Shown one piece after another: positions 54,710 to 59,218 of a stretch of DNA of 64,000 bases. The first letter of the stretch is position 1, and each line of letters starts with the position of its first letter. A model generated the notes under the pieces. It ran no database searches and was not told the DNA's origin. It saw only the letters and a list, made by a program, of their open reading frames with translations. Position numbers and translations under genes: made by a program. The DNA is from Gammaproteobacteria bacterium (GTDB taxonomy: Bacteria; Pseudomonadota; Gammaproteobacteria; Thiohalomonadales; Thiohalomonadaceae): the NCBI GenBank assembly GCA_024709225.1, contig JANJXC010000038.1, forward strand, positions 62,001 to 126,000, read 5' to 3'.

Positions 54710-55822
54710 ATGATCATCATCCTGCAGCCGCACGTCACCACGCAGAGCCCGGAATTCGACGCCCTGCGCAACCACATCGCCAACCTGCCGCGCGTGCAGA
54801 TGCGCGTGCACGAGGAGCGCGGCAGCCAGCAGACGCTGACCGAGATCTATCTCATCGGTGACACCGCCGCGCTGGACAAGGACGACATGGCCAGCCTGCC
54901 CGGTGTGGAGCGCGTGGTGCGCGTATCGCGTGAATATCGCGTGCTCGGCCGCCACCACGACGACCAGCGTCCCAGCTATTTCGAATACAACGGCGTGCGC
55001 TTCGGCCAGGACAATTTCAACGTGTTCGCCGGCCTGTGCGCGGTGGATACGCCGGCGCACGTGGAAGAGATGATGCGCACCCTGCGCGACTATGGCCAGG
55101 TGTGCACGCGCATGGGCGCCTACAAGCCGCGCACCAACCCCTATGCCTTCCAGGGCCACGGCAAGGCCTGCCTGCCCTATGTATTCGAACTGGCCGGCAA
55201 GTACGGCATCAAGGTCATCGCCATGGAGGTAACCCACGACCGCCATGTGGCGGAGATCCACGAGGCGCTGCATGCCGCGGGCAATCCCACCGGCGTGATG
55301 CTGCAGATCGGCACGCGCAACACGCAGAATTTCGAACTGCTGAAGATCGTCGGCCGCCAGCGCGAATTCCCGGTGCTGCTCAAGCGCGGCTTCGGCATCA
55401 CCCTGGAGGAATCGCTCAACGCCGCCGAATACCTGGCCTCGGAGGGCAACCGCAACGTGGTGTTCGGCCTGCGCGGCATGAAGACCAACATGGGCGACCC
55501 GCACCGCAACATGGTGGACTTCGCCCATGTGCCGGTGGTGAAGCGCCTGACGCGCATGCCGGTGTGCATCGATCCGTCGCATTCGGTGGGATCGCGCGAC
55601 CGCGGCCCGGAGGGCCTGCTCGACGTATTTCACGTCACCGCCCAAGGCATCATCGCCGGCGCCAACATGGTGCTGGTGGATTTTCACCCCCAGCCGCCCA
55701 AGGCCCTGGTGGATGGACCGCAGGCCCTGCTATTCAACGAGTTGCCGCACTTCCTGGAGGATGTGGCCATCGCTCGGGAGGCTTACGAAAAGCGGGTGGC
55801 CGCTGCGGCGCGCTATGCATGA
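54710..55822 (+). CDS. 3-deoxy-7-phosphoheptulonate synthase (DAHP synthase)
   Basis: AGLCAVDTPAHVEEMMRTLRDYG...GAYKPRTNPYAFQGHG...GTRNTQNFELLKIVG...PVLLKRGFGITLEE...IDPSHSVGSRD. Confidence 0.9.
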   Translation: MIIILQPHVTTQSPEFDALRNHIANLPRVQMRVHEERGSQQTLTEIYLIGDTAALDKDDMASLPGVERVVRVSREYRVLGRHHDDQRPSYFEYNGVRFGQDNFNVFAGLCAVDTPAHVEEMMRTLRDYGQVCTRMGAYKPRTNPYAFQGHGKACLPYVFELAGKYGIKVIAMEVTHDRHVAEIHEALHAAGNPTGVMLQIGTRNTQNFELLKIVGRQREFPVLLKRGFGITLEESLNAAEYLASEGNRNVVFGLRGMKTNMGDPHRNMVDFAHVPVVKRLTRMPVCIDPSHSVGSRDRGPEGLLDVFHVTAQGIIAGANMVLVDFHPQPPKALVDGPQALLFNELPHFLEDVAIAREAYEKRVAAAARYA

Positions 55823-55874
55823 CAGATACTGTGATACACGTCACACATGACAACTGGCAGTGCATGACATGACA
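55818..55874 (+). promoter_or_regulatory. Candidate upstream activator sites: CATGACA half-sites for the sigma-54 activator
   Basis: CATGACA at 55818, 55846, 55863 and 55868 (the last two as CATGACATGACA), 50-110 bp upstream of the -24 element. Confidence 0.6.
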
Positions 55875-55925: not shown

Positions 55926-55941
55926 TGGCACGGGTGTTGCT
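55926..55941 (+). promoter_or_regulatory. Sigma-54 (-24/-12) promoter
   Basis: TGGCAC-GGGTG-TTGCT, matching TGGCACRNNNNTTGCW. Confidence 0.88.
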
Positions 55942-55951
55942 AAATTAACCC

Positions 55952-56051
55952 CGTGGAGCAAAGCCACGCATTCTGCGGAATGTGTGGTGGATTCCCCTCC
56001 TTCCACACTGTGGTGTTTTTTTAGCCGCTCCCGCAAGGGCGCGGCTTTTTT
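55952..56051 (+). ncRNA. Predicted ~100-nt sigma-54-dependent small RNA
   Basis: Begins ~12 nt after the -12 GC; hairpins CGTGG/CCACG, CATTC/GAATG, GTGTGG/CCACAC (loop uggauuCCCCUCCUU); U7 tract; terminal GNRA-loop terminator; no credible ORF. Confidence 0.65.
56023..56051 (+). terminator. Intrinsic terminator of the predicted small RNA
   Basis: AGCCGC-T-CCC-GCAA-GGG-C-GCGGCT followed by TTTTT. Confidence 0.85.
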
Positions 56052-56181: not shown

Positions 56182-57531
56182 TCAGTTGCCGCGCATGCGC
56201 TCCACGTAGCGATACAGGGTGCGCTCGCTGACCCCCAGCCGCTGCGCCGCGCGCGCGCGGTGACCTTCACAGGTTTCCAGCGCGTGCATCACCTCGTCAT
56301 CGGTCAGGCGGCCATTGCGGCGCTGCAACAGCCTCCTGCCGCCGGCGTGCAGCATCGGGTTGTCGCCGCCGGGCTGCTGCACGTCCTCGCGCCGCGGCCC
56401 CTCAAAGACCAGGTGTTCCGGCCGGATGATGTCCTCGCCATAGGCCAGGATGGCGGCGCGCTCCACGATGTTGCGCAGCTCGCGCACATTGCCCGGATAG
56501 TCATAAGTCATCAGGGCCTCGATCACGTCCGGTGACAGCGGCACAAAGCGGTCGCCATCCTCGTTGCCGGCGAGGAAATACTCCGCCAGTGCGGCGATAT
56601 CGTCGGGGCGGTCGCGCAGCGGCGGGATACGTACCGGGAAGGCGGACAGCCGGTAATAGAGGTCCTGGCGGAACTCGCCGCGCTCCACCATGCGCTGCAG
56701 GTCGCGGTGCGTGGCGGCAACCACGCGCACATCGACGTTGATGTATTCGGTGCCGCCCAGGCGGCGGATGGTGCCGGTCTCCAGCACTCGCAGCAGCTTG
56801 GTCTGCAGGGCCAGGGGCAGCTCGGCGATTTCGTCGATGAACAGGGTGCCGCCGTGCGCCACTTCGAACAGGCCCTTCTTGCGCCCGGCGGCGCCGGTGA
56901 AGGCGCCCTTTTCATGCCCGAACAGCTCGCTCTCGATGAGATTTTCGCCCAGGGTGCCGCAGTCGACGATGACGAAGGGGCCACCGGTGCGGGGAGAATA
57001 TTCGTGCACATATTTGGCGACACACTCCTTGCCCACGCCGCTCTCGCCCAGCAGCAGCACCGTGGTGGTGGTGGGGGCGACGCGCTGCAACAGACTGGTC
57101 ATGCGCACCATCGGCCGTGAGCGGCCGATGAGCAGGGTATCCTGCCGCTTCTGACTGACCGGGAAGATGTATTCGCCCACGTACAGCACCTTGCCTTTGT
57201 CATCAAACAAGGGGGTCGACTGCAGCTGCACGTACTCTTCATGCCCGTTCATGTCGTAATGGATATGCATCACCTGGGTCGACTGCCCGGTGCTGAATAC
57301 CGCCTCCAGGGGACAGTGTTCGCCGTGTTGGCTGCACGGGGTATCCACACGATGCGACACCTCGTAGCAGAAGCGGCCGACCACGTCGTCGCCGTTGGCC
57401 AGGCCGTAGCGCTTACGGTACTGGGTGTTGGCGGCCATGATGCGGTAGTTGCGGTCGATGACCACGAAGGGGTCGGGCAGGATGTTGATGATTTGTTCGC
57501 AGGACGGCTTGGCAATACTGTCGCAACTCAT
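56182..57531 (-). CDS. Sigma-54-dependent transcriptional activator (PAS-AAA+-HTH), FisR-like
   Basis: PAS with [23 protein letters not shown] (C-x10-C-x6-C), Walker [15 protein letters not shown] motif [16 protein letters not shown], Fis-type [27 protein letters not shown] at 57531 with GGAGG SD. Confidence 0.92.
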
Positions 57532-57628: not shown

Positions 57629-57667
57629 CATGTCATGACATGGTCTGCTTGTCATGCTGTCATGTCA
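57629..57667. promoter_or_regulatory. Activator binding sites in the regulator's own upstream region
   Basis: 14-bp perfect palindrome CATGTCATGACATG at 57629, then TGTCATG at 57650 and TGTCATGTCA at 57658. Confidence 0.6.
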
Positions 57668-57747: not shown

Positions 57748-59022
57748 TTATTTCAGGCGTTCAATGCCGAGGGCCTTGAGGACGTATTTCTCGAACAGGG
57801 GCTCGGAAGAGCCCTTCTTCATCTTGTTGATGAAATACTTCTCGAAGGCCACCTTGGCCATGTGCACCCACTTGCCCTTCTTCATCCAGGACACGTTGCG
57901 CGGCGGGATCTGCGGCATGGCGACGAAGGCCACGCCGGTGTCGCCCATGTCGGCCAGGCAGATGGCGTTCCAGGTGCCCTTCTCGTCCGGCTCCTTGCCC
58001 TCCAGGGCGTTCTTGATGTTGTGGGCGGTGGCGGAGACCATGGACTCGATCATGTAACCGGTCTTCGGCGTGCCGGTCGGCACCGGGGTGGTCTCCACCG
58101 GCGGGATGGCGATGCAGACGCCGACCGAATAGATGTTGTGCCACTTCGGGTTGCGCTGGAAGGCGTCGACCTTGACGAAACCGCGCGGGTTGACCAAGTC
58201 CTCGCCCACCTTCATCACCGGGTCGATGCCCTTGAAGGCCGGCAGCATCATGGAGTACTTGAACGGCAGTTCGTGCTCCTTGATCACCTCGCCCTTGTCG
58301 TTGTGCTCGGCGACAAACATCTTGCCGGCCTCGACCTTGGTCACCTTGGCGTTGCACACCCACTTGATGTGATTCTGGCGCAGCTCCGACTCCATCATGC
58401 CCTTGGAATCGCCTACGCCGCCGAGGCCCAGATGGCCGATATAGGGTTCGGAGGTCACGAAGGTCATGGGCACCTTGTCGCGGATCTTGCGCTTGCGCAG
58501 GTCGGTGGCGTAGATCAGCGCGGTTTCATAGGCCGGGCCGAAACAGGAGGCGCCCTGCACCGCACCGACGATCAGCGGACCGGGATCCTTGACGAACTCC
58601 TGCCATGCGGCATAGGCCTTCTCGGCATGGTCGGTGGTGCATACGGAGTGGGTGTGGCCGCCGTGGGGACCGAGGCCCTCGACCTCTTCAAAGGCCAGCT
58701 TGGGGCCGGTGGCGATGACCAGATAGTCGTACTTCACGGCGCTGCCGTCCTGCAGCACCAGGGTGTTCTCATCCGGCTTCATCTCGCTCACCGGCTGGGC
58801 GATGAGCTTGATGTCCTTCTTGGCCAGGTAGCCGGCCATCGGGAAGGTGATGTCCTTGCGCGAACGCCAGCCCACTGCCACCCAGGGATTGGACGGGGTG
58901 AAGCTGAAATGGTCGGAGCTGTTGATCACGGTGATGTCGTGCTCGCGGCCCAGCACGTCGCGGAAATCATATGCTGCGGGCAGGCCGCCGATGCCGGCGC
59001 CCATAATGACGATATGTGCCAT
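57748..59022 (-). CDS. sqr: Sulfide:quinone oxidoreductase (type I-like)
   Basis: MAHIVIMGAGIGGLPAAYDFRD..., conserved Cys in HSVCTTDHAEKA, GASCFGPAYE and WNAICLADMGD. Confidence 0.92.
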   Translation of the reverse strand: MAHIVIMGAGIGGLPAAYDFRDVLGREHDITVINSSDHFSFTPSNPWVAVGWRSRKDITFPMAGYLAKKDIKLIAQPVSEMKPDENTLVLQDGSAVKYDYLVIATGPKLAFEEVEGLGPHGGHTHSVCTTDHAEKAYAAWQEFVKDPGPLIVGAVQGASCFGPAYETALIYATDLRKRKIRDKVPMTFVTSEPYIGHLGLGGVGDSKGMMESELRQNHIKWVCNAKVTKVEAGKMFVAEHNDKGEVIKEHELPFKYSMMLPAFKGIDPVMKVGEDLVNPRGFVKVDAFQRNPKWHNIYSVGVCIAIPPVETTPVPTGTPKTGYMIESMVSATAHNIKNALEGKEPDEKGTWNAICLADMGDTGVAFVAMPQIPPRNVSWMKKGKWVHMAKVAFEKYFINKMKKGSSEPLFEKYVLKALGIERLK

Positions 59023-59218
59023 CTGATCCTCTCCTCGTGTGTACCCAACCGGCTCAAGGAGTATCCCCAAGCCCAATTGTGAAATTGTTGCGCAATCATA
59101 AGGCAATATTTATGCCATATATCACGCCGGCCGGGGCTGGCGCCCGGCGAGCCGGTTTTATTGCCCTCCGCGCCGATGGCTATACAATAGCCGGCTTTTC
59201 CGTTGCCACAGCCTGCCG

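Follow-up and report, generated by a model that had tools for sequence, protein, structure and literature searches.

A predicted sigma-54-dependent small RNA with a conserved anti-Shine-Dalgarno stretch, probably controlled by a FisR-like activator, in the Thiohalomonas group

Positions 55,952 to 56,051 of the window, which is the whole 64-kb stretch of DNA analysed here, raise the question of whether a small RNA (sRNA) is encoded there, how such an RNA would expose its anti-Shine-Dalgarno (anti-SD) letters and what would switch it on. A preliminary description of the site had proposed an sRNA with a hairpin, at 55982-56008, presenting CCUCCUU in its loop. We found the presence of an sRNA at the site very probable, and its most likely function is that of a sulfur-inducible anti-SD sRNA. 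The features of the locus are listed in Table 1.

Table 1. Features of the predicted sRNA locus and its surroundings (window positions)
Feature	Position	Strand	Remarks
TGACA repeats at 55820, 55848, 55865 and 55870	55820..55874	+	candidate FisR upstream activating sequence
Sigma-54 promoter TGGCACGGGTGTTGCT (-24/-12)	55926..55941	+	best score of any such site on either strand of the window
Predicted sRNA, about 100 nt	55952..56051	+	homologues by DNA, pattern and covariance model
5' hairpin CCACGCATTC-TGCG-GAATGTGTGG	55964..55987	+	pair probability about 0.99; two-sided changes keep pairing
C/U-rich anti-SD core CCCCTCCTT	55994..56002	+	proposed target-pairing seed; CUCC-type core in 12/12 homologues
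Mini-hairpin CCAC-ACT-GTGG	56003..56013	+	CCAC arm is part of the 3' arm first proposed
U7 run	56016..56022	+	possible Hfq site; most homologues have 4-7 U
GC-rich terminator hairpin with U6	56023..56051	+	
FisR-like activator, PAS - sigma-54 AAA+ - Fis-HTH	56182..57531	-	Pfam; start placed by conservation; open frame extends to 57636
Second TGACA/TGTCA cluster, upstream of fisR	57631..57667		similar repeats upstream of fisR in orthologues
SQR/FCSD-like flavoprotein (sulfide:quinone reductase), upstream of fisR	57748..59106	-	Pyr_redox_2; likely start 59021
Sigma-54-like promoter of SQR-like gene, TGGCATAAATATTGCC	59102..59117	-	

Twelve genomes of the family (the Thiohalomonas group) carry the conserved sRNA. 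A DNA search of relatives detected the region in the genus's other four genomes and, with weaker matches, in two more genera; the covariance model added G005, G010, G017 and G018, all of which retain the promoter, the CUCC-rich strand, a mini-hairpin and the terminator. The block TCCACACTGTGGTGTT occurs once each in 8 of the 20 family genomes, with no match to the reversed-pattern control; a named record carrying it is Thiohalomonas denitrificans isolate BE2011_63_42. Scanning GTDB genomes for the exact pattern hit this bacterial group and, beyond it, only three actinobacterial contigs; these were discarded, all three carrying the same unrelated stretch. Also set aside were the match in G015, which is a sigma-70 relative and was left out of the 12, and L008, which matches the terminator only. 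Rfam at the gathering threshold gave no match in the window, and the scanned members of both sRNA families, the sigma-54 type and the sigma-70 type described below, all score below the Rfam 15 thresholds, so that neither family would be picked up by annotation pipelines.

The predicted RNA starts about 12 nt after the -12 element, by position within a few bases of a GUGG-type 5' end in most members, and ends at the terminator. Fold z-scores of the 12 homologues range from -2.0 to -5.3, and the conservation of the C/U-rich core plus the next 20 nt is far beyond chance. In the 5' hairpin, several pairs differ on both sides between the window genome (G000) and G001 with pairing kept. The mini-hairpin has C-G changed to U-G in G005 and G010, and CTCC..GGAG takes its place in G018. 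For the terminator, two-sided changes were seen in 6 of 8 counted pairs, a count that includes G015 and comes from an alignment fitted to the model, so that it leans toward structure. This terminator probably also ends the convergent fisR transcript. Helix 1 of the covariance-model structure lies in the promoter and was rejected as spurious.

The letters of the hairpin first proposed are as claimed: GTGTGG at 55982-55987, TGGATTCCCCTCCTT at 55988-56002, CCACAC at 56003-56008 and T7 at 56016-56022, with CCTCCTT identical to the 16S anti-SD core. As a structure of the 100-nt transcript 55952-56051 it did not hold. The perfect 6-bp GTGTGG/CCACAC stem has a pair probability of about 0.01, and GTGTGG is instead the 3' arm of the conserved 5' hairpin (55964-55973/55978-55987, about 0.99). 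Forcing the first stem gave -38.0 versus -41.3 kcal/mol and broke the terminator. Within the genus, G002 and G003 lack this stem, G001 has a reduced form and G004 keeps it almost whole. Perfect 6-bp stems with CCTCC in a loop of 8-20 nt occur five times on the plus and three times on the minus strand of the window, so that one such hairpin by itself is no more than chance would give. A related sRNA encoded elsewhere in this genome does show CUCCUUU in its loop; at this locus, given the pairing and the lack of stem conservation, we consider loop presentation in the 55982-56008 hairpin highly improbable.

The C-tract, stretch CCCCUCCUU in the window RNA, lies instead between the 5' hairpin and the mini-hairpin. 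The description had staked its claim on conservation of this tract, and the C/U-rich stretch that characterizes anti-SD sRNAs is indeed kept in all 12 sigma-54-type homologues. It is only partly accessible: about half of the core is paired in the predicted fold, where GGAG or GUGGAG near the RNA 5' end is able to pair with the CUCC core in several members. According to this model, the CUCC seed may stay partly closed and open only on meeting a target. As for the U7 tract suggested to serve Hfq or early termination, it is present, its length varying from 4 to 7 U, and the strong terminator proved to be the next hairpin.

Two other functions for the transcript were weighed. It might encode a small protein, as in the window genome a 14-codon frame runs from the ATG at 55980 across the conserved block; the matching start codon is missing in other members, the frame end is not conserved because the number of U residues varies, and the conservation has no codon pattern. 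We rejected this ORF and regard a coding function as scarcely credible. The RNA might mainly titrate a protein (Hfq, or CsrA/RsmA via loop GGA), like CrcZ or RsmZ, in line with a GGA in or near the 5' hairpin loop of G009, G013, G017 and G018 and with the U run adjoining the terminator. The predicted loops in the window's genus (UGCG, GACG) lack GGA, however, and the best conserved part is C/U-rich, unlike a CsrA site or an A-rich Hfq site, which makes titration distinctly unlikely. The loci with the loop GGA (L061, L062, L063 and L065), outside the genus, have a possible CsrA/RsmA site there.

The preliminary description did not include the sigma-54 promoter, the upstream repeats or the link to FisR. 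A sigma-54 promoter lies just upstream of the RNA in all 12 homologues (weakest in G010), each having TGGCA[CT] and a -12 element, and its distance is right for a sigma-54-dependent sRNA. Clusters of at least four TGACA/TGTCA within 90 bp are found at only two places in the window, upstream of the sRNA and upstream of fisR. The offsets of the TGACA repeats from the -24 box recur within the genus. Upstream of the sRNA these repeats are enriched in 10 of the 12 homologues, enrichment being weak in G002 and G003, and upstream of fisR they are present in 12 of 12 genomes with 2 to 8 copies per 250 bp. The two genes share the repeats also when they are on different contigs (G005, G009, G013, G018). 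A near-perfect CRP-like palindrome, TGTGATACACGTCACA, occupies 55830-55845 between the DAHP synthase gene and the sRNA promoter, and is not evident at the matching place in the other members shown.

The fisR-like gene is located downstream of the sRNA and convergent with it. According to Pfam, its product combines a sensor domain, a sigma-54 AAA+ domain and a Fis HTH, as expected of the FisR class, and the gene adjoins an SQR-like gene behind a sigma-54-like promoter, in keeping with the sulfide-oxidation neighbourhood of FisR. The best NCBIfam match of the SQR-like protein is SQR type III, below the cut-off. Cysteines 55, 66 and 73 of the sensor domain are invariant in 12 aligned sequences; their spacing of 11 and 7 is presumably that of C53, C64 and C71 in Cupriavidus FisR. 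The regulatory-domain cysteines of Cupriavidus FisR contribute to the sulfide response and are not conserved in A. baumannii (PMC7315123). A second PAS-sigma-54 activator, about 47% identical to FisR, was seen at L045-L054, with the same three PAS cysteines in the two copies aligned.

Of the 20 family genomes, 13 carry a close fisR orthologue (at least 66% identity), and the sRNA was found in 12 of these; it was found in none of the other 7. The sole genome with fisR and no sRNA, G006, presents a contig-end fragment in an 82% complete genome. The chance of such co-occurrence by random draw is about 1 in 10,000, a figure that relatedness makes less strict, since 5 of the 12 sRNA genomes belong to one genus and the 20 genomes are not independent trials. 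Promoter, conservation and co-occurrence with fisR can all be read from the genomes themselves. Genomes of the genus have many sigma-54 activators (7-13 matches per genome), and with the CRP-like site in the window genome this leaves some room for control of the sigma-54 sRNA by another of them; co-occurrence, neighbourhood and shared repeats all favour FisR, and we judge a different activator unlikely. In G011, a second sigma-54-like promoter (L013:991-1006) lies between the sRNA and two rhodanese-domain genes preceding fisR; it is possibly a further FisR target.

RF02278 was the recurrent sub-threshold Rfam match on the sigma-54-type RNAs. The window RNA shares its plan of CUCC-rich strand, small hairpin, U run and GC-rich terminator. 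The first hairpin behind the CUCC single strand has an anti-SD loop in RF02278 and an ACU loop here, and in L063 four of the pairs in the RF02278 hairpin are non-standard. With scores of only 15.6 bits for the window RNA and 21-26 bits for the homologues, against a gathering threshold of 50, we call the window RNA a probable diverged sibling of RF02278 and not a member.

Model R2 included G015, and its class-wide matches were therefore mostly of a sigma-70-type relative, to which all 16 inspected class-wide loci outside the family belong. In this relative a sigma-70-type promoter is followed by ACTCCTCCATCCTCCTTTGGTGG, a run of U and a strong terminator. At the three loci whose genes were listed, it lies between a [2Fe-2S] ferredoxin-like gene on its upstream side and rplM or purH on its downstream side. 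With up to 3 mismatches it is present in 16 of 16 complete family genomes, and with up to 1 mismatch in 79 of 369 class genomes, from 60 of 270 genera; the reversed control gave none among the genomes listed. The window genome's copy (G000:C40:7179-7197, L159; 1 mismatch) shows CUCCUUU in the loop of CCACC-CUCCUUU-GGUGG, and in the window's genus the stem is CCACC/GGUGG in place of CCAUC/GGUGG. The Rfam family closest to this relative is RF02278, with 45.1 bits in the window genome (threshold 50). Bordetella S17 resembles RF02278 and adjoins coq7 (PMC11722255), and a coq7-like gene is also near the sigma-70 relative in G141. Loci of this relative were recorded in Gammaproteobacteria as L078-L093, L143, L144 and L145-L161, with tandem copies in G195 (two) and G301 (three).

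The sRNA core in the genus is complementary to AGGAGGGG, which stands 3-11 nt before an ATG 8-18 times per genome. The only gene with this motif near its ATG in more than one genus genome is dsrE2 (5 of 5; identified by NCBIfam SulfCarrDsrE2), and since several matches of the control 8-mer AGGAGGTG, which is commoner with 26-47 gene-start matches per genome, apparently recur between genomes too (by matched strings), descent alone can explain this conservation. The rhodanese-tusA-dsrE2 cluster of the window genome is at L166:1498-2760 (G000:C56). Several apparent target-pattern matches were internal to longer ORFs and were dropped. The dsrE2 SD, GAGGAGGGGGCTC, is the same in five genomes though the flanks differ; judging from its letters, the region could fold on itself (GGAG-GGGG-CUCC) and hide the SD. 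The predicted duplex of the sRNA with the fisR SD (GGAGGAG or GGAGGGG) has -15.6 to -19.9 kcal/mol in the genus, compared with -8 to -18 kcal/mol for five neighbouring genes. On these data, fisR and dsrE2 are weak candidates for targets; feedback on fisR would have parallels in S17/BP2158 and NfeR1/ntrB and is plausible.

Taken jointly, we favour, with a probability of roughly 0.6, a FisR-switched, sigma-54-dependent anti-SD sRNA that is induced by sulfur, blocks ribosome binding sites and is a sibling of the RF02278-like sRNA. We infer its transcription, its control by FisR, the sulfur signal and the repression of targets. Rising reactive (sulfane) sulfur would lead the convergent FisR-like activator to turn on the sRNA gene from its sigma-54 promoter. 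The RNA of about 100 nt is predicted to fold into the 5' hairpin, the C/U-rich anti-SD stretch, the mini-hairpin with U residues and the terminator, and the C/U stretch would block translation of a set of mRNAs by pairing with their purine-rich ribosome binding sites; these mRNAs might include fisR, giving negative feedback, and dsrE2. The RNA would be the conditional sibling of the housekeeping-type RF02278-like anti-SD sRNA elsewhere in the genome. The 3' tail of 16S rRNA is GGAUCACCUCCUU; GGAUUCCCCUCCUU in the sRNA of this genus resembles it, and the RNA could act as a decoy of the ribosomal anti-SD. A more specific version, in which FisR acts on translation too by inducing the sigma-54 sibling to repress dsrE2 and fisR mRNAs, perhaps with such a decoy effect, is tentative and rather doubtful.

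The regulators known for reactive sulfur species are transcription factors, and in the literature searched we found no sRNA under a reactive-sulfur sensor. If FisR does drive an anti-SD sRNA, sulfur homeostasis would reach translation as well, and the kinship of a conditional sigma-54 RNA with a housekeeping-type anti-SD RNA that is widespread would illustrate the recruitment of such RNAs to new signals. What is new is the sigma-54/FisR wiring and the relation to the housekeeping-type RNA; the mode of action is explained by known sRNAs.

RF02278-type sRNAs repress via anti-SD sites (PMC11722255, PMC5362039). RF02278 (Betaproteobacteria toxic sRNA; bdhR1; Bordetella S17) and the window RNA both have a C/U-rich anti-SD before or around a small hairpin and then a U run and a GC-rich terminator, whereas the hairpin loop, which holds an anti-SD in RF02278, is ACU only in the window RNA. 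S17 represses a sigma-54 activator gene (PMC11722255) but has a sigma-A promoter. Neisseria NmsRA and NmsRB are likewise a sibling pair, with an anti-SD between stem-loops 1 and 2 (PMC5362039); they are tandem copies under RelA/stringent control with a second anti-SD in the SL2 loop, whereas the siblings here are unlinked and the window RNA is sigma-54-type with one anti-SD stretch. NfeR1/alpha-r14 also uses anti-SD seeds, and NfeR1 represses the mRNA of the transcriptional system controlling it (ntrBC; PMC10746234); it differs in its three anti-SD motifs and sigma-70/LsrB promoter, and its model scored only 12.6 bits on the window. Xanthomonas sX13 has C-rich motifs that base-pair with G-rich ones, frequently at ribosome-binding sites; it has three C-rich loops and another structure, and the portions of the source consulted report no sigma-54 promoter (PMC3771888). 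Finally, the FisR regulons of Cupriavidus and Acinetobacter resemble this locus in having a FisR-type sigma-54 activator with SQR that responds to sulfide or reactive sulfur species, and differ in that their known targets are sulfide oxidation operons, with no mention of an sRNA (PMC7315123).
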